From the NCBI RefSeq assembly GCF_018383585.1, contig NZ_JAHAMK010000013.1, positions 1 through 64,000 of the forward strand: a stretch of 64,000 nt of DNA, given 5' to 3'. Shown here in pieces: positions 7,800 to 46,689 of the stretch (positions are counted from its first letter, which is position 1; the number at the start of each line of letters is the position of its first letter). Origin of the DNA: Microvirga sp. 3-52 (GTDB lineage Bacteria; Pseudomonadota; Alphaproteobacteria; Rhizobiales; Beijerinckiaceae). Position numbers and translations under genes: made by a program. Under the pieces are notes generated by a model that was given only the letters and a program-made list of their open reading frames with translations, had not been told where the DNA came from and searched no databases.

Positions 7800-8024
7800 T
7801 CAAGACCATAGGATCAATATCACCCCGGTCCCAGGTTAGGAAGAGAAGCACGGGGAGGAAGCTACACGACTCATCCGACTCGGCTTTCCTAGCGTGGCTG
7901 AATCAAACTCGACCATAGCTACAGCCACAAGAGGAGGCTCTCTCGAGCGGGGTGGCTCGAGACTGAAGCTGTCTACCAAACTGTCTACCGGATTTGGGCT
8001 CTCTGGCTAAGCCCTTGAGAAGAA

Positions 8025-8101
8025 TGGTCGGAGTGGCAGGATTTGAACCTGCGACCCCCACGTCCCGAACGTGGTGCGCTACCAGACTGCGCTACACTCC
8101 G
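8025..8101 (-). tRNA. tRNA-Pro (anticodon CGG)
   Basis: A full cloverleaf reads on the minus strand. The acceptor CGGAGTG pairs with CACTCCG, and the anticodon stem CCACG/CGTGG encloses loop TTCGGGA (anticodon CGG). The T-arm GGTTCAAAT and an encoded CCA end are present. It is 77 nt. Confidence 0.95.
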
Positions 8102-8127
8102 ACACCGAAAATTCTCGGGAGGCCGGA

Positions 8128-8156
8128 CTTATAGCGGCGAGGGGGGAGCGCCGCAA
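8128..8156 (-). promoter_or_regulatory. promoter of tRNA-Pro
   Basis: On the minus strand TTGCGG and TATAAG are 17 bases apart, about 27 bases upstream of the mature tRNA. Confidence 0.6.
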
Positions 8157-8206
8157 GGGGAGAATTGCGCCTTTCGTGCAGATATATGGGTCCTCGCAAA
8201 ACGGTG

Positions 8207-8235
8207 TTGCCAGCCGCCATCCGGCCGATTATGTA
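8207..8235 (+). promoter_or_regulatory. promoter of tRNA-Gln
   Basis: TTGCCA (8207-8212) and TATGTA (8230-8235) are 17 bases apart, 15 bases upstream of the mature tRNA. Confidence 0.6.
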
Positions 8236-8249
8236 CACGCCACACCGAT

Positions 8250-8324
<75 letters not shown>

Positions 8325-8420
8325 TCCCATGCTAAGTTCCTGAAACCGATAGCTTTTTGCCCGATTTTGGGCGAGGCGCTCCGCACTGCTGCACATCCCT
8401 GTCACACATGGGTGTCACAC

Positions 8421-10352
8421 ATGCCGGTCGGTTCTCATCTTATGCGTCGCGGTGCGGTATATTGCTGGCGGCGCCGGCTCCCGGCTTGCGGCGCGAACGG
8501 ACGGCAGGTCCTGCAGATCAGCCTGCAGTCGACCCACTGGACCGAGGCGCGCCGGATCGGAGCGGAGTTGACCGCGATGAGCGAGCTCGTGTTCGACGAG
8601 ATGCGGCGCGGCCGCCTGAGTCAGGACGAGGCGAAGGCGATCCTCGTAGCCGTTGCCCTCCGCCATGCCGCAAAGCTCGAACTCGTCGCGACAGTGGATC
8701 GGGCGCGTGAGGCACCTGAGCCGATGAGCAGTGAGCGCGCGGACCGGGTCAATGGTGCTGTGTATCGCCTTCTCGCCGAACGGGGGCGGACCGCGGACGG
8801 ACCAATTGATGCTGAGTGGCTCCGCTCCTGCGGGCTCGATCCGAGCGAGGCAGACCAGGTCAAGGCCGTCCTGAAGTTCTATCGCCAGCAGGGCCTTGTG
8901 CCCCCGAAGCCTGTTCGCCTGCAGAGCCTGATCGCGGAGCATGCTCCTGATGTCGGTCCGAGCGCCATCGCCCTCGCTCAGGCCGAGAACGCGTTCTACC
9001 GCGGCATGGCGGCGGCCTTGTTTCATTCCGCCGCAAAATGGGGCGCGGGGTTTCCCGAGGATATTGCGACGGCATTCGGGTCCGATCCGGTAGCGCTGTC
9101 GCCGCTCCCAACGGCCGTTTCCGCTGAAGCCTCGCCGCCTCCCGTTGCGCCTTCAGCCGCCAAAGCCGAGCCTGAGCAGAAAGCCGCCGTGCAGGCCAGC
9201 ATTGCCGATCTGGCTGAGAAGCTTTGCGCGACCAAACTCAAGCTCAGGGAGTGGACCGACAAAACCTGCCGCCAGATGCGCCAGACCGCCGGCCTGTTGG
9301 TGAAGGAGGTTGGGCACGACGACCTCACCCGGCTCAGGCAGGCTGATATGGCTGCATATGTGGATACCCTTCTCGCCCTGCCGAAGAGCTACGGAAAGTC
9401 ATCGCGTGATGTGAGCCGTCCGCTCAAAGAACTGCTCGCGGCGGCGAAGAAGCTGCCCGAGAACCAGCGGGGCCTTGAAGGCCCGAGCATCAACCGACAC
9501 CTGACGCATCTTGGTAACCTTGTCGACTTCGCGGTGGGTCGGGGGCTTCGGCCGGCGGAGGCGCTCAACCTGACCACCCTGCGGGCCCGAAAGAAGGGAC
9601 GGGACCGTGATGACCGGGCGGTGTTCACAGCGGCGGATCTCATGACCGTCTTTGACCTGCCGGTCTGGCGCGGCTGCCGCGGAGAGGGTGCACGGCTCGA
9701 GCCGGGGACGGTTGTAGTTCACGACGGATTGTACTGGGCTCCCCTGATCGCCGCCTACTCGCTGATGCGCCGGGAGGAGATCTGCGGGCTAATGATTGCG
9801 GACATCCACTTCGACGGAGGGATTCCGTACTTCGAGGTGCGTCCCAACAAATACCGCCGCCTCAAGAACGCTCAGTCGAAGCGCAAGCTCCCCATCCATC
9901 CCGAGCTCCTGCGCCTTGGCCTGCGCGATTATGTCGAGGCCATTCGCCAGCTCGGGTACGACCTCCTTTTCCCGGACCTGCTCCCAGCAAGCGGAAATGC
10001 TCCTTTAGGAGACCAGCTCCACGATGGTTGGGCGCCAGCGCTCGCGAGGGCTCTTCCGACCGCAAGCGGGGAGGGTAAGACGTTTCACTCAATCAGGCAT
10101 TTCGGGAACGACGCCCTGATCGATGCCAAGGTGATGCTGGAATGGCGTCAAGATATCATGGGGCACAGCGGGGTCAGCGAGACGGACGAGCGTTATCGGG
10201 ATGAGACACGACTCGCGCGCAAGCTGAGTGCCCTCCGTAAGCTGCCGACTGTAACGGCATCGCTTCAACCAGCCCGCATCTCGTTGAGGGAGACCGTTGT
10301 CGAGAAAATCGGCAGGCGATCCCGACGCCGCCCATCAGGCCGGTCCCGATAG
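8421..10352 (+). CDS. tyrosine-type site-specific integrase
   Basis: This 643-residue recombinase would insert and excise the island at tRNA-Gln. The N-terminus (MPVGSHLMRRGAVYCWRRRLP) is the short DNA-binding start common in alphaproteobacterial island integrases. The SAM-like core-binding domain is around 270-400 and the catalytic domain around 410-620. Catalytic residues are visible: Arg in SLMRREEICGL, His and Arg in FHSIRHFG, His in IMGHSG, and the Tyr nucleophile in DERYRDE. The gene starts 97 bases after tRNA-Gln. ATG 8421 is chosen by homology to the usual start; no strong ribosome binding site is seen. A broken relative is at 33400. Confidence 0.92.
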   Translation: MPVGSHLMRRGAVYCWRRRLPACGANGRQVLQISLQSTHWTEARRIGAELTAMSELVFDEMRRGRLSQDEAKAILVAVALRHAAKLELVATVDRAREAPEPMSSERADRVNGAVYRLLAERGRTADGPIDAEWLRSCGLDPSEADQVKAVLKFYRQQGLVPPKPVRLQSLIAEHAPDVGPSAIALAQAENAFYRGMAAALFHSAAKWGAGFPEDIATAFGSDPVALSPLPTAVSAEASPPPVAPSAAKAEPEQKAAVQASIADLAEKLCATKLKLREWTDKTCRQMRQTAGLLVKEVGHDDLTRLRQADMAAYVDTLLALPKSYGKSSRDVSRPLKELLAAAKKLPENQRGLEGPSINRHLTHLGNLVDFAVGRGLRPAEALNLTTLRARKKGRDRDDRAVFTAADLMTVFDLPVWRGCRGEGARLEPGTVVVHDGLYWAPLIAAYSLMRREEICGLMIADIHFDGGIPYFEVRPNKYRRLKNAQSKRKLPIHPELLRLGLRDYVEAIRQLGYDLLFPDLLPASGNAPLGDQLHDGWAPALARALPTASGEGKTFHSIRHFGNDALIDAKVMLEWRQDIMGHSGVSETDERYRDETRLARKLSALRKLPTVTASLQPARISLRETVVEKIGRRSRRRPSGRSR

Positions 10353-33829: not shown

Positions 33830-36307
33830 TCATTGAACAATGCTGGGGGTCTTTGTATCACGACCTCTGACGAGAAAGTATTGATTGAGCGTCTTGTGGG
33901 TGCGTTCAAGCTCCAGCGCCAGGTGCTCAACCTGTTCTGTTCCGGTGCGCATGAGGTCGGCGCTCGTGATCTTTCGCCAACTAATGCAAATCTCATGCAC
34001 CATCCGAGCTCCGACATTCGCTGAGGCGCTCTGCAATCCGTGGGCCTCAAGGCGGAACCTGTGGGAGTCGCCTGACGCTGCCGCAGCGCGCAGTTCACCG
34101 ACGAGATGATGGGCGTCCGAAAAGAACTCCTCCACGAGGTTCGTCACAAAATCTCTGCCTCCCAGTTGCTCAAGTTCCGTGAGAACCGATTCGTCGATCA
34201 GGGATGTATGGTCAGTCAGGGATCCTTTAGGGTTCCCGCTGCTTGTAGCCGGCAAGCTGTCGGTGGAGGAGCCGACGCTCTCGTCAACGATCCTGAGAAG
34301 GACCGCCGGCTGAACGGGCTTTGTCAGGCATGCATCCATACCTGCCTCGACAGTTCGAGCAACAACCTCCGGCGTTGCATCGGCTGTCAGCGCAATAATG
34401 GGCATACGGGTGCCATGGGGCTCCGTAAACCGGAAGAGTTTCGTTGCCTCCAAGCCGGTCATCACGGGCATATTGATGTCCATGATGACGAGGTCGAATC
34501 TCTCTGTCTCAAGGGCGTCGAGCGCATCCTCGCCATTCGTGACGCATCGCGTGGTGTGCCCGCCACGCTCCAGGATCTTCGTGATCACCAGACGGTTGGT
34601 CGAATTGTCGTCTGCGACAAGGATCGAAAGGCGCCTGGACGCGGTGGGAAGCACGATATCGCTCGGCCCGCGCCAGATCGATTGCGCCAGTGACGTCTGC
34701 GCTGCCGCGGCCATGGAAGCGACTCTTGCATCCTCCTCGGAGAATTCAAGCGGGAGCACGCTGCTGGATAGCCGGATCAGCCTCGCGTTCGATGCGATCT
34801 CCGATGGTTTCGAGCGGATCAACACCGGATTGGCCGTCAGCTCCGCGGACCCGATCTCGTCCGCGAGGGAATCCTCAGGCAAGTCGCTGTAGTAGAATAC
34901 GAGCCACTCTCGGGAACTGTGCCGTTCTGCATGTTCTTTTGCGTCTGCCAGCGTTCTCACGATGGGGAGTTGGTCCGCGCGGCCAAGCCGTGATGCGATG
35001 CCGCTCGCGAGATCCGGGCTCGAACAAACCAGAAGGGGCTGAAACCCGTTCGGCAAGGTCTGGACTGGGTTCATCTGGTCGGGAATGCTGACCGGGAGGG
35101 TGAACCAGAAGGAGCTGCCGTGGCCTTCCTCGCTGTCGACGCCGATCGTGCCTCCCATGGCGGTGATCAGCTGCCTGCAGATGGAGAGGCCCAGGCCGGT
35201 TCCACCGTAGCGATTGATGATGGTTTCGTCCGCCTGTGTGAAGCTTTCGAAAATTCTGCCGATCGCCTGAGGGGCAATGCCGATGCCGGTGTCGGACACG
35301 GCGAAGCGAATGAAAAGCCCCTTGTCGGTATTCGACGGCCGGGCGTCCAGCGTGACGTACCCGCTGTCGGTGAACTTGACCGCGTTGCCGAGAAGATTGA
35401 GGAGGATCTCCTCGAGGTGGTGGGACGAGCCATGAATGTATGAAGGTGTCCCGGGCGCGACGTGGATCGTCAGGCGGAGACCCTTCTGCTGCGCCTGGGC
35501 AAGCATCATCGCCCGAGCGGTGGAAAGCACCTCCAACAGATCGAAGTCGACCTTTTCCAGGGGCATCTGGCCCGCCTCGATGCGGGACAGGTTCAGGATG
35601 CTGTTGATCTGCCGGAGCAGGGTATCGCCTGCCGAGCCGATCGTGCGGATGATCCCACGCTGCTCGGCGTCGAGATTTGTCCCGGCCATCAGGCTGGAAA
35701 GGCCGATGATCGCGTTGAGCGGGGTTCTGAGCTCATGGCTGACGCTGGCGAGGAAAAGCGTCTTCGCGCGATAGGCGGCCTCCGCCTGCGCCTTCGCGTT
35801 GGAGAGCTTTCGGATCAGCGTGCTCGCATAGAGCGGAAGCACGATGAGGCTCAGCAATAAGGTTGCCGAGAGGTAGATGTCATCGTGCCACCGCGGCGTC
35901 GTGTAAATGACGACCATGAAGCAAACCGCCGAGACCGTCATGGCGATGTACAGGAAGCGGACTCCGAAGCGGAATCCGTTTCCGAAGGTGATCCAAAGGT
36001 ACAACAGGAAGAGGACCGACGAGGTCTCCCCGACATAGCGCAGCTGGAACGACACGGTCGCGAGGTCGCACACGATGGCGACGATGCGTCGGATTGTCGA
36101 TTGGCCGGGCCGGACCAGCATATGGACCACGATCCCGGCGGAAACGAGCGCGAACACCGTGCCGCTGATCAGCGCCACCCGCGGTACGGAAGGATTGATC
36201 CAAAAGGTATAAGTCACGATCAGGCTCAAGAAGATGAGCCGATTGAGGCTCATCTCATGTTCACGATCGGGACTGTTTCTGAACCGGGCCAGGAGGTTCG
36301 CAATCAC
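33830..36307 (-). CDS. rpfC: RpfC-like hybrid sensor histidine kinase
   Basis: This 825-residue sensor for diffusible signal factor is predicted in the inner membrane. A short cytoplasmic start ([15 protein letters not shown], as in RpfC) is followed by five helices to about 165. The HisKA domain has its phospho-His at 191 in [11 protein letters not shown]. The HATPase domain is at about 300-410 ([15 protein letters not shown]), and the receiver at about 570-690 has phospho-Asp in [11 protein letters not shown]-terminal Hpt domain has His near 777 in [18 protein letters not shown] 36307 overlaps the stop of the upstream regulator gene by four bases (GTGA), so translation is coupled. rpfF lies divergently 2.7 kb away. 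Confidence 0.88.
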
Positions 36308-38475
36308 CGAGCGCGCGCCTTCCGGAGAGGGATGTCCGGATTCGGGAGCAGATAGCTCGGACGTTCCTTGAGCAGTCCGGCGAATATGTCCGACGGCACC
36401 GGCCGACTGAACAGATAGCCTTGTGCCTCGTCGCAGGAATGGTTGAGCAGGCAGGCAAGCTGAGATTGCGTCTCGACGCCCTCTGCGACGACTTTCAGTT
36501 CGAGGCTCTCCGCCATCGAAATGATGGCCCTGACGATGGCTTCGTCACGGGTCCCGTCCGAGAGGCTGGACACGAACGAACGGTCGATTTTCAACGTATC
36601 GACCTCGAAGTTTTTCAGATAGCTGAGCGAGGAGTAGCCCACACCGAAATCGTCGATCGCGATCCGAACCCCCAGCTTCTTGAGCTCGCGCAGGATCAGT
36701 TTGGTTCTTTCGACATCCTTGAGAAGGCTGCCTTCGGTGAGCTCGAGCTCGAGGTATTCCGGCCTCAGACCGGTTGCCTGCAGGGTCTCCGCAACGAGTT
36801 GGACGATGTCTTGGCGCAGGAATTGCACCGGCGACAGGTTCACGGCGATCTGCAACGGGGCATGTCCCAGGGCGTGCCATGACGCTGCCTGGGCGCAGGC
36901 TTTTCTAAGAACCCAGGCACCGATCTCATTGATCAGGCCCGTCTCCTCGGCGATATCGATGAAGACATGAGGCGACGTGATGCCGAAATCGGGTCTGATC
37001 CAACGCAGGAGGGCCTCCGCCCCCACGATCGCTCCCGTGGCCAGATCGACCTGAGGCTGGTAGTGCAGAACGAACTGCTCCTGCGAGATGGCCTTCAGAA
37101 GATCCGCTTCCAGGCTGATGGTGTTCAACGAGATGCTTTCCATCTCCTGGGAGTAGAAGCGGACCGTGTTCCTTCCTTCGGCCTTGGCTTGATACATCGC
37201 CAGATCGGCGTATCTGAGGAGCTTCTCCACGTCCCGTCCATCGCCCGGAGACATGGCTATCCCGATGGTACAACCGAGCCGCAGCTCATTCCCATCCAGA
37301 AGGAACGGAGCCGACAGGCTGTCTATGATCTGTCGCGCGAGCTCTTCGGCATCCTGTGCGGCATTGATATTCGTCTGCAACACCACAAACTCGTCACCGG
37401 ACATCCTTGCGATGAGATGGGTGCTGGGCACACAGCCGACGAGGCGACCTGTCACCTGCTGAAGGATGCGGTCGCCGCCCGCATGGCCAAGGGCATCATT
37501 GACCGACTTGAACCGGTCGAGATCGATCAGGAACAACGCGAACTGACCTCGCTCACTGTCGATCTCCTGCTGAACTCTTTCGTAGAGCATCCTGCGGTTG
37601 GGCAGATCGGTCAGAGTGTCATGCAAGCCGATATGCCGGAGTGTATTCTCCGCTTGTTTCCTCTCGGTGATGTCGATCGATGTGGTGAGAACACCCGTCA
37701 CACCGCCTGTCAGTTCACGCAGGGACGTTTTGGTCGTCAGGAAGGCCCGCTCGGAGCCGTTGCCGTCAGGGATCCGCTCCTCGAAGCTGGAAGATGCCCG
37801 CTGCTTCCCCAGAATGGCTTTGTGAATACGTTCGCCATGTCCCACATTGTCGCTTCGAAGCACGGCATGCAGGGGCCGTCCCAGGAGGGATTCGGGAGAC
37901 ATGTTGGCGAATTCGGCAAAGTAGGCGTTGACGAACAGGATGCGGTTCTCTTCGTCAGTTGCGCTGATCATTGCCGGAACGGTGTCGATGACCTGCGTCA
38001 GTGCCTCCCGGCTGCTGCGAACCAGTTCCTCTTGAGACCGCTCGCTGATGCGAAGTTGCTGCTCAAGGGCCAATGCGCGACTTTTGATGAACTGCTGCTG
38101 CCTTTGCAGCTTGAGAAGATTGCGTGCCCGTGTCGTGAATTCATAATGGTCGACCGGCGATCTGAGGAAGTCCGTCGCGCCCGCCTCGAGAGCCTGAAGC
38201 CGGAAGGCTCTGTCGTCGTAGGCCGTGATGACAATGATCGGGACATCGGCACCATTGACGCTGTTCCTGGCCCGCCTGGTGAACTCGGCACCGTCCATGC
38301 CCGGCATTCGGAAGTCGGTGATGATCAAGTCGGGGCAGTTCCCACCGAGCCAGGCAAGGGCCTCATCGGGCGACGCGGACGCGTGTACCTCCGCACCTTC
38401 CTCGATCGCTTGCGCCAAGCGAGAGAAGATGTTGCGGTTCGTGCTTCTGTCATCGACGATCAGAATGCGCGCCAT
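36304..38475 (-). CDS. response regulator with PAS, GGDEF and EAL domains (c-di-GMP turnover)
   Basis: This 723-residue protein is the likely partner of the RpfC-like kinase. The receiver domain (1-120) has phospho-Asp in LIITDFRMPGMDG. A coiled linker and a PAS domain follow at about 155-265. The GGDEF domain (about 275-440) has motif SGDEF, and the EAL domain (about 455-705) has EALLRW, the metal Asp pair in DDFGVGYSS, KIDRSFV and EGVETQ. Both catalytic halves look intact, so it could make or break c-di-GMP. Xanthomonas RpfG is instead REC-HD-GYP. ATG 38475 follows a G-rich ribosome site. Confidence 0.9.
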   Translation of the reverse strand: MARILIVDDRSTNRNIFSRLAQAIEEGAEVHASASPDEALAWLGGNCPDLIITDFRMPGMDGAEFTRRARNSVNGADVPIIVITAYDDRAFRLQALEAGATDFLRSPVDHYEFTTRARNLLKLQRQQQFIKSRALALEQQLRISERSQEELVRSSREALTQVIDTVPAMISATDEENRILFVNAYFAEFANMSPESLLGRPLHAVLRSDNVGHGERIHKAILGKQRASSSFEERIPDGNGSERAFLTTKTSLRELTGGVTGVLTTSIDITERKQAENTLRHIGLHDTLTDLPNRRMLYERVQQEIDSERGQFALFLIDLDRFKSVNDALGHAGGDRILQQVTGRLVGCVPSTHLIARMSGDEFVVLQTNINAAQDAEELARQIIDSLSAPFLLDGNELRLGCTIGIAMSPGDGRDVEKLLRYADLAMYQAKAEGRNTVRFYSQEMESISLNTISLEADLLKAISQEQFVLHYQPQVDLATGAIVGAEALLRWIRPDFGITSPHVFIDIAEETGLINEIGAWVLRKACAQAASWHALGHAPLQIAVNLSPVQFLRQDIVQLVAETLQATGLRPEYLELELTEGSLLKDVERTKLILRELKKLGVRIAIDDFGVGYSSLSYLKNFEVDTLKIDRSFVSSLSDGTRDEAIVRAIISMAESLELKVVAEGVETQSQLACLLNHSCDEAQGYLFSRPVPSDIFAGLLKERPSYLLPNPDIPLRKARAR

Positions 38476-39013
38476 GTCTTGCCCCCCGGCATCCCTGGCC
38501 AATGAGATAGGTCTATCCCTGAATATGATTCCCTATCGATTCAAGGGACGATCTGTTTGATGGTGGTCATTCGGTCGGCCATGGGATCTGTACTCGCGCT
38601 TGCTTGGTTCTCAATCCTCTGCCGAGGCCGGTAGGCTGATCCAGGGGCAGCAAACCCGTAGTTGATCGTCATTTCACTGACTAGACTACGCTGAGCTCAC
38701 ACTGAACGAGCAATTTATACCACAATAACGTTGGGTCATGTGGCGGTCGATGCTGGCTTCTTCAGGTATTGGTTAATCCAGGGTTATCGCTTCAGCACGA
38801 CAAACACAGAATAACCTCGCCGGTCGAGTTCAAAAGCGCCGACAAGGCTCCTACCATTAACCAAGATACTTACCAAACGGCACGGGCGGCTACACAGGCC
38901 GTCGTTAATCGATCATTATCCATAGGAAAGGACGCCTGTCGTAACCACGGCGTCCTCAACCTCGGCGAGATGACGCTCGCCGTGTCCAAATTTCTCTATG
39001 ATGGAGAGTGTTG
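38476..39013. other. divergent rpf regulatory region
   Basis: About 540 bases lie between the c-di-GMP regulator gene and rpfF. No intact gene is evident. A frame from TTG 38769 or ATG 38970 ends at 39014 and overlaps the rpfF start as TGATG, so a coupled leader peptide (14 residues from the ATG) is possible. Confidence 0.45.
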
Positions 39014-39985
39014 ATGCCGACCCCCTCGGCCAAAGTCGCTGGCCCTGTCCGCGACGAGGCCCAAAATGTCGATTACGAGGTCGCTTCGCCTCCTGTACGT
39101 CCGTCCCAGAAGCCGAATCCGGCGCCATCGGGTGGCAGTGCGACAAACCTTCTCCTGCCCCATATCGACGTCAAGATCGACTTTGAGCAGAGGATCTATT
39201 GGGCAGCCATGCGGTCGAGCCGGCACCCGATGATCACGATGGAACTGCTCCAGGACATGATGTGCGTACAAGAATCCGTTCGCGTGATCATGGAGGAGGG
39301 AAACCGCGAGCAGCATCAGCACCTCGAGTACTTTGTCGCGGGATCCCAGACGCCTGGCGTTTATAATTTCGGCGGGAATTTGGCTTATTTCGCGGATTGC
39401 ATCCGCCGCCGGGATCGTGAGGGCCTGCGGGAGTACGCCTATGCCTGCATCGACGTGGTCTATGGGAATGCCATGGCATTCCACACACCCGTGATCACGA
39501 TCGCGCTGGTTCAAGGTGATGCGCTCGGCGGCGGGTTCGAATGCGCGCTCTCCTTCGATGTCCTCATCGCGGAAAAAAGCGCCAAGATGGGTCTGCCGGA
39601 GGTTCTGTTCAACCTCTTCCCGGGAATGGGAGCGTACAGCTTCCTCTCCCGCAAGATCGGCACAGCCGCGGCCGAGAAGCTCATCATGAGCGGCACGGTC
39701 TATACGGCGGAGGAACTGCATCGGCTCGGCGTCGTCGACATTCTCGCGGATGACGGCCAGGGTGAGAACGCAGTCAGGGACTATATTGCCCGCAACAGGC
39801 GCAAGCATAATGCCCATAAGGCCATGTACCGGTCCAAACGGCGCATCAATCCGCTCACCTACGAGGAATTGCGGGATATCGTCGATATCTGGCTGGATGC
39901 GGCCATGGAACTGGGAGAGCAGGATCTGCGCAAGATGACCCGTCTTGTGGAAGCTCAAGGACGCCGCTTCGACAAAGGAAGCTGA
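39014..39985 (+). CDS. rpfF: RpfF-like DSF synthase (enoyl-CoA hydratase/thioesterase)
   Basis: RpfF makes cis-2-unsaturated fatty acid signals from 3-hydroxyacyl-ACP by dehydration and thioester cleavage. This 323-residue crotonase-fold protein has the RpfF-specific blocks VQGDALGGGFECALSFDVL and GLPEVLFNLFPGMGAYSF. Both contain the catalytic glutamates, and the latter block separates RpfF from ordinary crotonases. The N-terminus is about 35 residues longer than Xanthomonas RpfF and Pro-rich. ATG 39014 has GGAGAG 5 bases upstream; GTG 39008 is possible. It is divergent from the kinase/regulator pair. Confidence 0.9.
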   Translation: MPTPSAKVAGPVRDEAQNVDYEVASPPVRPSQKPNPAPSGGSATNLLLPHIDVKIDFEQRIYWAAMRSSRHPMITMELLQDMMCVQESVRVIMEEGNREQHQHLEYFVAGSQTPGVYNFGGNLAYFADCIRRRDREGLREYAYACIDVVYGNAMAFHTPVITIALVQGDALGGGFECALSFDVLIAEKSAKMGLPEVLFNLFPGMGAYSFLSRKIGTAAAEKLIMSGTVYTAEELHRLGVVDILADDGQGENAVRDYIARNRRKHNAHKAMYRSKRRINPLTYEELRDIVDIWLDAAMELGEQDLRKMTRLVEAQGRRFDKGS

Positions 39986-42949: not shown

Positions 42950-43027
42950 GCAAAGCTCCATCATCGGTGGTCGTCGGAAGATAGGGTGCTTGTCCGGCAT
43001 CTCTATGGGTGAGGGCCAGGAGTCCGC

Positions 43028-44368
43028 TCATGGTCTGACCTGCGGGTCGGTTCCATGTTCATGACTGCCATAGCGGCTGCACATCTCTCGCCTGATTTGA
43101 ACGGCCAACCGGCTGGGGTCCAGATCCACGTCATCTTCCGTGACCTCAGAACCTGCGGCGACATCTCGAGTCAGGCGGACACCGTGCGCAAGGCCTACAG
43201 GCAGCATGCGTCGAGCCTTGCTGCGAGCCGCAGGGGCCAGCCGCCCATAGACGGTATAGCCGCCCTCGCCATCGAGGCTTTCTCCTGTCTTCAAATCACG
43301 CTTCGCAACCGCAACCGCATCGCCGCGCCATGATCGGCAGGAGCCCGTCGGTTCGCCGCGCAGGGCAGCGCTCAGGACCGAGATCGACAATTCGAGCCCG
43401 ATCAGATGAAAGGGCTTGTACATGGCCGCATAGCGGCCCGTTGGATCCGTGGGAAGACCGTACTGCTTGAAGCAGGCTGCCGCATAATCGTTGGGAGCTT
43501 TCAGCACCACATAGACGCCCCAGCGCAGATCCCGGAATACCGGCCTGCCGTCGCGTTCGAGCGAGGACACCACCTCCACCATGCCATCACGGTCGAGTTG
43601 GCCGCCGACGGCACGCGGGCGCAGGATATGCGCGAGATCGTCGACGCCGCAAGGCGGGAAGAGCAATCCCTCTTCCGGTACGTCGAGGTCGCAGGCATTC
43701 GCGATGGCAGCCATCTCAATGGCGGATTTGGTGCCGTCGAGGAAGGAATTGAACATCTGCGGATTCATGCCTGCTGCTTTTGCCTGCTCCGGCGTCAGGC
43801 CGTAATGCGTCCAGACCTCGTCTGGGGTGACTGTATGATAGGCGGGAAGGTATTTCGTTCCCTTGCCCGCTGCAGCGACCGTGAATCCTGCAGCACGGGC
43901 CCAGTCCACCATCTCGGACACGAGTGCCGGCTGGTCGCCATAGGCCATCGAGTAGACGATCCCGCGCTCTCGTGCCTTTTCGGCGAGGAGGGGGCCTGCC
44001 AATACGTCCGCCTCCACATTGACCATGACGATGTGCCGGCCGGCCTCGATGGCCGCCAGTGCATGCCTGATTCCCGCTTCGGGATGACCGGTTGCTTCGA
44101 TCACCACCTCCACATCGCCCGCAGAGCTGGCCTCCGTTCCGTCGGCGGAGAAGCGCGTGCCTGCAATCCTCTCCTCATCCCAACCCACGGTCCGGCAGGC
44201 CTCGCGCGCACGGTCCGGATCGAGGTCGGCGATCATGGCAACCTCGAACCCTGCGATGGTCGGCACCTGGGCAAGAAACATAGAGCCGAACTTGCCGGCG
44301 CCGATAAGTGCCACCCGGACGGGGCGGCCTGCCTCGCGTCGTTGGCGGAGCAGTACTGACAGGTTCAT
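43028..44368 (-). CDS. NAD(P)-dependent oxidoreductase with SAF domain, DXR-II (DRL)-like
   Basis: The 446-residue protein has a Rossmann NAD(P) motif (VALIGAGKFGSMFLAQ) near residue 18 and a homoserine-dehydrogenase-like catalytic part (GTKYLPAYHTVTPDEVW). A C-terminal SAF-type region (LAHGVRLTRDVAAGSEVTEDDV in adjoining blocks) completes it. This is the arrangement of the DRL family, whose Brucella member acts as a second type of 1-deoxyxylulose-5-phosphate reductoisomerase. Other members have different sugar-acid substrates, so a function in isoprenoid synthesis is not certain. GGAGGCAAG precedes ATG 44368. It is the first gene of a two-gene unit with the aldo/keto reductase. Confidence 0.7.
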   Translation of the reverse strand: MNLSVLLRQRREAGRPVRVALIGAGKFGSMFLAQVPTIAGFEVAMIADLDPDRAREACRTVGWDEERIAGTRFSADGTEASSAGDVEVVIEATGHPEAGIRHALAAIEAGRHIVMVNVEADVLAGPLLAEKARERGIVYSMAYGDQPALVSEMVDWARAAGFTVAAAGKGTKYLPAYHTVTPDEVWTHYGLTPEQAKAAGMNPQMFNSFLDGTKSAIEMAAIANACDLDVPEEGLLFPPCGVDDLAHILRPRAVGGQLDRDGMVEVVSSLERDGRPVFRDLRWGVYVVLKAPNDYAAACFKQYGLPTDPTGRYAAMYKPFHLIGLELSISVLSAALRGEPTGSCRSWRGDAVAVAKRDLKTGESLDGEGGYTVYGRLAPAARSKARRMLPVGLAHGVRLTRDVAAGSEVTEDDVDLDPSRLAVQIRREMCSRYGSHEHGTDPQVRP

Positions 44369-44570
44369 GGCGTCTTGCCTCCGGTGCTTCGTTTCTTCGT
44401 CCGGTCAGGCTCGAAGCTGCACAGGCGCGAGTCAATGGGCTTCATCGTACGGTGCAGGTGCAAAATCTCCGGCTCCGGTCTCAGAAACTTGATCGGATAT
44501 GCGATGTGCTCGCTTGTCATGGCGGTGGCCCTTCGCAAGTATCTGCGGGAGACATTTCGCGAGGTCGGGC

Positions 44571-45695
44571 ATGGATCGCCGCCACTTCATCGCACTCGCA
44601 GGACTGACCGTTCTGGGAGCCTCCCGCGTGTCCGCCCAGCATGCAGGGCATGGCGCGCCGCTGCCCGAGGCTGCACCCTCTCCGGAGCCGTATGCCCGCC
44701 TGCAGGGAGGGGTGCCGCATCATCTGACGCCCGAGCAGGAGGCGCAGCGCGTGATCGACAGCCCGGCTCCGGCCGGCCCGCAGGGACGATGGGTCTCCCG
44801 TGCGGCATTGCCCATTCCGCGCAGCGAGATGGCCTGGGCCACGGTTTTGAACGATCGCATGCATATCATCGGCGGCTATGGGGAGGGGCGGGTCGACCGT
44901 GCCTATCACCACGTCTACGACCCGGCTTCGGATCGATGGTTCAAAGCCGCTCCGCTGCCGCGCGGCGCCAATCATGTGGCCGTCGCGACCGATGCCGGAC
45001 GCGTCTTTGCCCTCGGCGGCTTCATTGAGCAGAATCGCAATCCCGACCACAACGCCTATGTCTACGATTCAGCGGCGGATCGGTGGTCGCCGATTGCGCC
45101 GCTGCCACGGCCCCGCGGTGCTGCGGCCGCCGTCGTGCTCGATGGCAGGATCCATCTGATCGGCGGCGCCTCCCTACCAGTTGCCGAGAGGGCCAGTGTC
45201 GGCTGGCACGAGATCTACGATCCGCAGGCCGATCGCTGGACGCAGGCGAAAGCCTTGCCCGGCGCGCGGGATCATGTGGGCTGCGTCTCGCATAACGGTG
45301 TCATCCACGTCGTCGGCGGACGCTTCAACACCTTCGAGTACAACACCAACCTGCATCACGTGTATCTGCCGGCCAAGGATACGTGGGAGGAGCGGGCGCC
45401 GCTCCCGACGTCCCGTTCGGGGCATGGGCTGGTGGTCTATCGCAGCCGGCTGTTCGCCATGGGCGGCGAGGCGGGGCGCATTGAGCAGGGAAGACCGATC
45501 CAAGCCAAGGTGTTCGGGCAGATGGAAAGCTACGATCCCGCCGCCGATACTTGGCAGCACCACGCGCCGATGCCGACGCCACGGCACGCGGTCGGAGCCA
45601 CGGTGATCGGAGACTGGATCTATGTGGCCGGAGGCGGTGCGGTTCTGGGAGGATCGATCCAGTCGGCCGTGCACGAAGCCTTCACGCTCGGCTGA
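44571..45695 (+). CDS. exported Kelch-repeat protein, Tat-type signal
   Basis: The 374-residue protein starts MDRRHFIALAGLTVLG, a Tat-like signal with cleavage near RVSAQ, followed by a His-rich stretch (QHAGHGAP). The remainder is five to six Kelch repeats recognisable by HIIGG, FALGG, HLIGG, HVVGG and FAMGG, each followed by Y-DP--D-W. It should fold as a periplasmic beta-propeller. The gene is divergent from the DXR-II-like gene and convergent with the next. The ligand is unknown; the His-rich N-terminus could bind metal. Confidence 0.87.
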   Translation: MDRRHFIALAGLTVLGASRVSAQHAGHGAPLPEAAPSPEPYARLQGGVPHHLTPEQEAQRVIDSPAPAGPQGRWVSRAALPIPRSEMAWATVLNDRMHIIGGYGEGRVDRAYHHVYDPASDRWFKAAPLPRGANHVAVATDAGRVFALGGFIEQNRNPDHNAYVYDSAADRWSPIAPLPRPRGAAAAVVLDGRIHLIGGASLPVAERASVGWHEIYDPQADRWTQAKALPGARDHVGCVSHNGVIHVVGGRFNTFEYNTNLHHVYLPAKDTWEERAPLPTSRSGHGLVVYRSRLFAMGGEAGRIEQGRPIQAKVFGQMESYDPAADTWQHHAPMPTPRHAVGATVIGDWIYVAGGGAVLGGSIQSAVHEAFTLG

Positions 45696-45702
45696 TAGGT
45701 TA

Positions 45703-46689
45703 TCACCCCGACATTGCACCAAGGACCTGCAGCTCCGCCTCGGCCTGGGCAACCGAGACCGCTCCGGGCTTGAGCCCTTCCCGCGCCATACGGGCTCCCA
45801 GTTCCGCGAAGTAGGTATTCGCAGGGGCCGGTACGCCGTAAAGCCGAGCCAGCAGCACGATCTCGCCGTTGAGGTAATCCGTCTCGATCGAACCGCCGCC
45901 GCGCGTAAGGCTCTGCGTCGTCGAGCTGCCCAGGCGGTCGATTCCGGCGATCGGCTTCTGGTTCATCAATTGTGCCCTGCGAGCGTCGGCTGCACCCACA
46001 TCCAGCCACGCGACGCCGGCCGCCTTGTAGGTGGCCTCCGCCTCAGCCCGGAGCAGCGCTTCCAGATGCCGGTAATCGGCATCCAAGCCGAACGCCGCCT
46101 GCAGGATGTTGCTCAGGTTGAGAAGCAGCTTTCCGTACTTGCTCCGCATCACGTCCTGTGAAACAAAAGCCGCGACATTGGCCGCCTCGAGAGCGTTCGC
46201 GAGCTTGGTATCGTGATCATTGCTGCCGCCGGGATAGCGCCCGACGTCGAAGATGCCATGACGCGGCACGGAAAAGGCGCTGACCTCGCCGGGTGCCGAG
46301 ATGGCAGCCGGCATCATGACCGTCACGCCGTGGACTTCAGGAAAGTAGCGCAGGGCAAGGCGCTCATTTGTCACGCCATTCTGAACGCAGAAGAGGGCCT
46401 GCCCGATGACGCCAGCAGCGCGCAGCCTATCCAGCGCGGCAAGCGTGTCCTGGGTTTTCATCGTCAGCAGGATGGCATCGTCCGGGCGAAAGTCGATCTC
46501 GGTGGGGTCCGATACGCAGGGAAGATGCACGCGTTCGGTCTTCTCCGGAGTGCGCAGGAGCAGTCCATCGGACTGGATAGCCTTGAGGTGGGCGCCGCGA
46601 GCAATGCCGATCACCTCTTGTCCCGAGAGCGCCAGGGCCGCAGCCACCGTCCCACCAATTGCTCCGACGCCATAGACAATGATCCGCAT
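45703..46689 (-). CDS. ketopantoate reductase family protein (ApbA/PanE)
   Basis: This 328-residue protein has the NADPH motif IVYGVGAIGGTVAAAL at the N-terminus and the family Lys in RSKYGKLLLNLSN (near 180). The C-terminal helical domain contains the SIETDYLNGEIV block. GAGGAG precedes ATG 46689. It lies 99 bases downstream of thuA in the sugar operon, so its substrate may be a 2-keto sugar derivative and not ketopantoate; PanE-like paralogues are common in catabolic operons. Confidence 0.8.
   Translation of the reverse strand: MRIIVYGVGAIGGTVAAALALSGQEVIGIARGAHLKAIQSDGLLLRTPEKTERVHLPCVSDPTEIDFRPDDAILLTMKTQDTLAALDRLRAAGVIGQALFCVQNGVTNERLALRYFPEVHGVTVMMPAAISAPGEVSAFSVPRHGIFDVGRYPGGSNDHDTKLANALEAANVAAFVSQDVMRSKYGKLLLNLSNILQAAFGLDADYRHLEALLRAEAEATYKAAGVAWLDVGAADARRAQLMNQKPIAGIDRLGSSTTQSLTRGGGSIETDYLNGEIVLLARLYGVPAPANTYFAELGARMAREGLKPGAVSVAQAEAELQVLGAMSG

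Follow-up and report, generated by a model that had tools for sequence, protein, structure and literature searches.

What output would a diffusible signal factor (DSF) circuit drive if the usual response regulator, RpfG, were replaced by another kind of enzyme? This question is raised by a 64,000-nucleotide stretch of Microvirga sp. 3-52 DNA (NZ_JAHAMK010000013.1, positions 1 to 64,000; hereafter the window), in which a gene for the DSF-family synthase RpfF lies beside genes for an RpfC-type hybrid kinase and a REC-PAS-GGDEF-EAL protein. We confirmed this adjacency, which had been pointed out in an initial annotation of the window. The Xanthomonas RpfF-RpfC-RpfG system likewise comprises a DSF synthase, a membrane hybrid kinase with a receiver (REC) and an Hpt domain, and a cyclic di-GMP (c-di-GMP) response regulator. 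However, the Xanthomonas output protein is REC-HD-GYP rather than REC-PAS-GGDEF-EAL; furthermore, the receiver lysine is a serine here, Q22 of the sensor is a Met, Ile, or Leu in 72 of 74 kinases, and the operon and rpfF run divergently in the clade to which the window belongs. We consider the module to be probably a third core type of DSF-family quorum sensing, in which RpfF and an RpfC-type kinase are coupled to a REC-PAS-GGDEF-EAL output. The interpretation offered in the initial annotation is, taken as a whole, supported by our sequence comparisons, which extend it in two respects: many alphaproteobacteria share the architecture, and the sensor hook and the output receiver each have altered residues.

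The rpfF gene occupies positions 39014..39985 on the forward strand (323 amino acids from a probable ATG start at 39014; the open frame from the GTG at 39008 gives 325). On the reverse strand, the gene for the REC-PAS-GGDEF-EAL protein (36304..38475; probable ATG start at 38475, with an open frame of 732 amino acids from the TTG at 38502) precedes that for the kinase (33830..36307; GTG start, 825 amino acids). The stop codon of the former and the start codon of the latter share a GTGA, so that the overlap from which translational coupling had been proposed is present (36307/36304). The rpfF gene is divergent from this operon, and the sequence between them spans 38476..39013. Neither promoter-like sites between 33.0 and 41.3 kb (2 versus 1.9 in shuffled sequences) nor terminator-like sites (6 versus 4.9 expected) were in excess.

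The synthase, a member of the crotonase superfamily and the one strong RpfF match in the window's genome, scored 378 bits against PRK08788 (cut-off 177), and its best PDB matches were 7zq7, 6dgn, 5fus, and 3m6m. With a profile built from nine RpfFs, solved RpfFs scored 263-272 bits, and the PDB entry ranked next reached 80.6 bits. Both glutamates that had been described as catalytic (E178 and E198, numbered from the GTG at 39008) are invariant in the nine aligned RpfFs and align with those of the solved RpfFs. In a tree of 139 rows, obtained by a quick search with support from the Shimodaira-Hasegawa-like approximate likelihood ratio test (SH-aLRT) only, five enoyl-CoA hydratases fell outside the RpfFs with a support of 100. 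An ordinary enoyl-CoA hydratase was excluded by the PRK08788 score, the gap in the PDB profile, and this tree. RpfF-like genes occur twice in each of two loci, L084 and L124.

In the kinase, HisKA, HATPase_c, Response_reg, and Hpt all exceeded their Pfam cut-offs, in agreement with the RpfC-like architecture first assigned to it. The best PDB entry, matched via the receiver alone, was the rpfC chain 3m6m_D (1.6e-24). The N-terminal 180 residues (35768..36307, reverse strand), modeled as a six-helix membrane sensor with an N-terminal DSF hook, matched no Pfam family; however, a profile of the alphaproteobacterial sensor matched the kinases of nine RpfG-type loci (99.7-145.6 bits), and we therefore take the window's sensor to be the RpfC sensor. 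The His, Asp, and His of the relay were invariant in all 97 kinases with one called receiver, and the receivers inside these kinases retained their lysine in every case. Judged by its common sensor domain and invariant relay residues, the window's kinase is a relative of RpfC.

We then followed the three genes across 61 genomes, the window's own and 60 relatives (sensor at E ≤ 1e-5, REC-PAS at E ≤ 1e-30, RpfF counted if full-length). RpfF was present in 23 genomes, the sensor in 22, and REC-PAS in 22; the same 22 genomes carried all three, with one sensor and one REC-PAS match each, and 38 genomes had none of them. Genome G049 has rpfF beside a different GGDEF-EAL protein, and in G024 and G027 the module genes are split over contigs such that linkage is not visible. 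The genomes with close matches to the window's RpfF all belong to a single genus, within which the distribution is patchy (21 of 37 genomes). We also scanned named genomes, taking the best 80 of 430 relatives, a set picked for its similarity to the clade of the window. Automatic calling of domains gave both the kinase and a REC-PAS-GGDEF-EAL protein in 63 of these 80 RpfF loci. Three further loci (L057, L097, and L128) showed a whole or partial output protein with an incomplete kinase call, one (L063) is cut off by the end of its contig, and 13 had neither partner or the kinase alone, several of them through contig ends (pieces of the output protein are visible in L091, L131, and L132). The 63 loci include Microvirga, Roseomonas, Gluconacetobacter, Inquilinus, Ancylobacter, Aureimonas, Sphingomonas, Pseudovibrio, and Kaistia. 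By the family names given in the tree of RpfFs, the architecture was seen in Methylobacteriaceae, Acetobacteraceae, Roseomonadaceae, Xanthobacteraceae, Sphingomonadaceae, and others. Nearly all records of the scan are labeled as alphaproteobacteria or Proteobacteria, the exceptions being a Mycobacterium label among the 63 (L079) and a Terriglobia label among the other 17 (L108). Among these best 80, the named genomes with an RpfF at least 79% identical are Microvirga, the nearest being M. sesbaniae (L055; RpfF 93%).

Gene order was compared in 68 three-gene loci, the window included (L092 and L155 are the same in sequence). In 58 of them, rpfF on the forward strand faces the kinase and GGDEF-EAL genes on the reverse strand, and 10 have the window's order. 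The predominant layout therefore has rpfF convergent with the regulator-kinase operon, the GGDEF-EAL gene occupying the place of rpfG, and it matches that of rpfF and rpfGHC in Xanthomonas as given in the relevant part of a review (PMC4504480). Pairwise distances of RpfF, the sensor, the kinase REC, and four output domains were correlated over 70 loci (21 pairs, r 0.61-0.88), and for each of the 21 pairs none of 500 permutations was as high; RpfF and the sensor were the most correlated pair (r 0.88). The operon overlap, the co-occurrence, and the co-divergence speak for the kinase being the one that would phosphorylate the GGDEF-EAL protein.

The same sensor pair is found with more than one kind of output. 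In 15 loci from other alphaproteobacterial families (L164-L166, L168-L177, L179, and L184), a REC-PAS(-PAS)-histidine kinase lies near RpfF and RpfC. These loci share with the window RpfF, an RpfC-type kinase, and a REC(Ser/Thr)-PAS front, but they end in a second histidine kinase where the window has GGDEF-EAL. Because the same REC-PAS front bears a histidine kinase in these 15 loci, the slot after RpfC is exchangeable, and a single REC-PAS front with swapped outputs is the simplest history. In the RpfF tree, all 73 rows labeled as of the GGDEF-EAL type fell within one set of 96 rows (SH-aLRT 98), the remainder of which comprised 18 unlabeled rows, 3 GGDEF-EAL rows, 1 kinase-type row (L184), and the mislabeled L063. 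Leaving aside unlabeled and enoyl-CoA hydratase rows, the output label must change nine times or more on this tree. Locus labels were automatic (L144 is labeled GGDEF-EAL, and L063 was labeled RpfR solely through a contig end, its genome, G024, having the kinase and REC-PAS on another contig), and the positions of long rows (L145, L161-L163, L181, and others) are not to be trusted. In this tree, the GGDEF-EAL form falls into one large RpfF clade.

A wider view came from two samples. In an even sample of the class, RpfF (E ≤ 1e-40) was found in 24 of 385 genomes, with 25 matches; the 24 loci other than the window's comprised 15 with a REC-PAS-kinase, 1 with REC-PAS-GGDEF-EAL, 7 with no partner or cut, and 1 with a GGDEF-EAL protein ~6 kb away and no RpfC. 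A sample of the phylum gave 63 genomes with RpfF, the window's included. Inside the class, the nine others (two of which also belong to the class sample) showed REC-PAS-GGDEF-EAL in 3, GGDEF-EAL without RpfC in 4, and neither in 2; outside the class, 20 of 53 were picked by hand and showed HD-GYP beside the kinase in 9, an RpfR label in 5, the kinase only in 4, and another arrangement in 2.

Several other arrangements were also seen. In other genera of Microvirga's own family (L156, L161, and L163), the neighbor of rpfF encodes a GGDEF-EAL protein 790-830 amino acids long (PAS_7-GGDEF-EAL in L156), and RpfC is absent. In a small-genome family outside the class (f59), which has many RpfF-bearing members, four loci (L150, L151, L153, and L154) have RpfF and an RpfC-type kinase with no adjoining third gene called; three of the four kinases were called with two receivers, and another locus (L152) has an HD-GYP protein. 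In Inquilinus and the record labeled Mycobacterium (L067, L073, L077, L079, and L097), extra short frames, mostly of ~280-460 amino acids and matching the sensor and kinase-core profiles, lie between the kinase and GGDEF-EAL genes and are reminiscent of Xanthomonas rpfH. Finally, in L084, L095, L104, and L108, where several kb are visible on both sides of RpfF, neither a kinase nor a c-di-GMP protein was called.

We next considered what the output protein could do. Pfam found no HD domain in it, and a search for HD_5 (HD-GYP) gave 0 matches in the window's genome, an absence that is meaningful because the same search was positive in 19 of the 61 genomes; a separate rpfG elsewhere in the genome, which had been named as part of a finding that would count against the module, was not found by this search. 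The GGDEF and EAL residues that we take to be catalytic were kept in 77 of 77 proteins, except for one Gly (76) and the Ala of the EAL triplet (75). At the first position of the GGDEF motif, Gly stood in 59 proteins, Ser in 17, and Arg in 1, and 25 proteins had the RxxD inhibitory site. The description of the window's motifs as intact held for the catalytic residues, with the corrections that the motif reads SGDEF, that the RxxD site is missing, and that the receiver lacks its lysine. The proposal that the signal may switch c-di-GMP synthesis as well as breakdown finds support only at the level of the conserved active sites. A one-way, RpfG-like output, in which EAL alone is active and GGDEF only binds GTP and regulates EAL, is a real possibility, although not the one that we favor. 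It would fit the SGDEF motif and the missing RxxD site, the best NCBIfam model (that of the phosphodiesterase DibA, with 484.6 bits against a cut-off of 980), and the best solved match (4rnh, a GGDEF-EAL "Motility regulator," 403 bits); however, the retention of the cyclase residues across many families seems to go beyond the needs of a structural GTP site.

The receiver of the output protein has its Asp and its Thr in 77 of 77 proteins, but the usual Lys in none (Ser 72, Thr 4, Ala 1). The same position is Ser in 14 and Thr in 1 of the 15 REC-PAS-kinase receivers, compared with Lys in 7 and Arg in 1 of 8 RpfG-type receivers. From 90 receiver matches in the window's genome, we took 70 (the best-scoring 30 and 40 near full length) and observed Lys in 66, Ser in 2, Arg in 1, and a gap in 1. 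Among the 65 with both Asp and Thr/Ser, the window's included, Lys was present in 63, one had a gap, and the sole Ser was that of the output protein.

The sensor hook is altered as well. In X. campestris, the DSF hook requires R15, D17, S18, E19, and Q22, according to the part of the study that deals with these residues (PMC5391125). The window's hook reads S-P-D-R-E-H-E-M. In 74 kinases of the GGDEF-EAL type, the residues at these positions were retained to different degrees (E 74, D 65, R 44, S 27, Q 1), and position 22 was Met in 58, Ile in 12, Leu in 2, Thr in 1, and Gln in 1. Gln was found at this position in 6 of 6 kinases with an HD-GYP partner and in 13 of 14 with a kinase partner, and an Asn lies three residues past it in 71 of the 74. 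Such a hook may serve a different ligand of the DSF family. It could also be taken to mean that the kinase senses another lipid or the state of the membrane and that RpfF uses a different acyl thioester, with no quorum sensing involved; the literature surveyed yielded no DSF chemistry for the species concerned, which would fit. We regard this as unlikely, given that RpfF and the sensor co-diverge more closely than any other pair tested, that RpfF retains both glutamates, and that the sensor is homologous to that of kinases from RpfG-type loci.

The RpfF-RpfR system of Burkholderia and Cronobacter offers another comparison, as there too a PAS-GGDEF-EAL enzyme adjoins rpfF. On this basis, the PAS domain of the window's protein could bind the fatty acid directly, the kinase being secondary. 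RpfR, as described in the pertinent part of PMC6361424, has an FI domain and a PAS domain that binds BDSF (Burkholderia DSF), with no RpfC alongside; in the window, by contrast, a receiver stands at the N-terminus instead of FI, most PAS contacts are gone, and a kinase is present. The contact positions S169, N172, Y183, R187, and N202 of RpfR are G, I, S, E, and T in the window. Across the 77 proteins, the R187 position is Glu in 72 and that of N202 is Asn in 4, unlike that of S169, which is often retained (Ser in 50). A profile of the GGDEF-EAL-type PAS domain scored 98.6-131.4 bits against 13 of the 15 REC-PAS-kinases (57.1 and 20.9 for the other two), but only 16.9-24.2 bits against four RpfRs and 29.1 against the RpfR-labeled L146. 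We rejected the RpfR reading of the PAS domain on its contact residues, and a mechanism of this kind is very improbable. A chance neighborhood without a functional module, to which the adjoining island DNA and the flanks that vary between species might point, was ruled out with a negligible probability remaining, as all three genes are linked or co-present in 22 of the 23 rpfF genomes despite the changing flanks.

Against these alternatives, we weighed the third form of DSF signaling, and several observations count against it. The NCBIfam RpfF equivalog NF053515 gave 223.8 bits for the window's RpfF, below its cut-off of 550. This model is narrow: one of nine RpfFs tested (L137, RpfG-type) passes 550 bits, and the RpfR-partnered RpfFs of L140 and L143 were not listed at 1e-60. 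By its scores, the window's RpfF belongs to a wider RpfF clade outside the equivalog. The window's hook retains only D17 and E19, with S, R, and M at positions 15, 18, and 22. With no lysine in its receiver, the output protein may not be switched by phosphorylation in the usual way. The co-divergence is owed partly to common descent. In the class sample, with the window included, just 2 of 25 RpfF matches have a REC-PAS-GGDEF-EAL partner and 15 have a REC-PAS-kinase; the kinase form of the slot is therefore the commoner across the class.

We nevertheless favor a DSF circuit with a REC-PAS-GGDEF-EAL output, for which we infer the signal, the direction of phosphotransfer, and the sign of the output from the conserved gene set and residues. 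RpfF would produce a cis-2-unsaturated fatty acid, which the RpfC-type kinase would sense via its membrane domain and N-terminal hook and to which it would respond by autophosphorylation. The phosphate would pass from His to the Asp of the kinase's own REC, to the His of its own Hpt, and on to the Asp of the REC-PAS-GGDEF-EAL protein, where the phosphorylated, lysine-less receiver would shift the balance of cyclase and phosphodiesterase. Most likely, the signal would tip this balance toward c-di-GMP loss through EAL, in line with the RpfG and RpfR pathways, and in the unstimulated state GGDEF would supply the opposite output. The REC of the kinase may also feed back on RpfF.

How the signal might reach the kinase was addressed by modeling. 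The window's sensor was predicted as a six-helix membrane domain (predicted local distance difference test score 92.6), and so was a second sensor from an RpfG-type locus (L136:11269-11838). The models resemble the membrane domains of ImcA, adenylyl cyclase 8, and Rv1625c, and their charge pattern puts the DSF hook in the cytosol, in contrast to the published five-helix drawing. Foldseek returned nothing under 0.001 for the window's sensor (top row Rv1625c, E 0.28), the likeness to ImcA surfaced only in a second look by VIA-align, and the sensor profile gave no match among PDB sequences up to E = 1. According to these models, the RpfC sensor would be six-helix with a cytosolic hook. We put forward more tentatively, as a rather doubtful whole, a picture in which the RpfF-RpfC pair is conserved while its output can be exchanged: in alphaproteobacteria, the lysine-less receiver-PAS module would carry either another kinase or a c-di-GMP enzyme working in both directions. 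The receptor in this picture would be a six-helix membrane domain of the nucleotide-cyclase type, and its hook, lying in the cytosol, would read the signal from within the membrane and not from the periplasmic side. Three loci (L137-L139) have an RpfC with two tandem sensor domains in a single open frame of 924 amino acids.

In a 2015 review and two 2026 reviews, the sections on DSF pathways describe two core routes, RpfC/RpfG and RpfR, and additional sensors (RpfS, BCAM0227, and DsfR) that occur in single groups (PMC4504480, PMC13220807, PMC12838280). The main text of a survey from 2022, which covered the c-di-GMP genes of five alphaproteobacterial orders, does not mention DSF or RpfF (PMC9756655), and that of genome papers on M. 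brassicacearum and Acetobacteraceae names acyl-homoserine lactones where quorum sensing is discussed and does not mention DSF (PMC8776678, PMC6780248). We found the module in M. brassicacearum (L127) and in six Gluconacetobacter loci (L086, L088, L100, L115, L121, and L125). Among the titles and abstract openings listed by searches of open-licence literature, no description of rpfF with a REC-PAS-GGDEF-EAL partner was found. If true, a third route would bring into DSF signaling many bacteria of plants, soil, and water for which the NCBI model matched by RpfF bears only the name "crotonase/enoyl-CoA hydratase family protein." It would also provide a natural swap experiment, in which one sensor pair is joined to HD-GYP, to GGDEF-EAL, or to a kinase as its output, together with a receiver for study whose lack of lysine is conserved; the six-helix model would make the membrane side of DSF reading directly testable.

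The claim that the module abuts a genomic island is borne out in part. The window has tRNA-Pro, tRNA-Gln, and a phage-type integrase at 8019-10352, the integrase adjoining tRNA-Gln at 8.3-10.4 kb, and ~23.5 kb (10.3-33.9 kb) between the integrase and the module is missing in the nearest relative (L031). There, the tRNA pair and an integrase remnant directly adjoin the module, and the segment, which carries metabolic genes, those for transporter and dehydrogenase functions among them, was therefore inserted in the window or lost in L031. No repeat of the tRNA-Gln 3' end, such as would mark an island boundary, was found in the window among exact matches of 16-30 bases. Among 20 genus regions, some of them on short contigs, only L031 shares the window's LysR, DoxX, and aldo/keto reductase neighbors, and in a DNA comparison with four other genus regions likeness was limited to the module. 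On the other side, 2.7 kb of the window (42957-45731), encoding a DRL-type oxidoreductase and a Kelch protein, are missing at the same place in L031.

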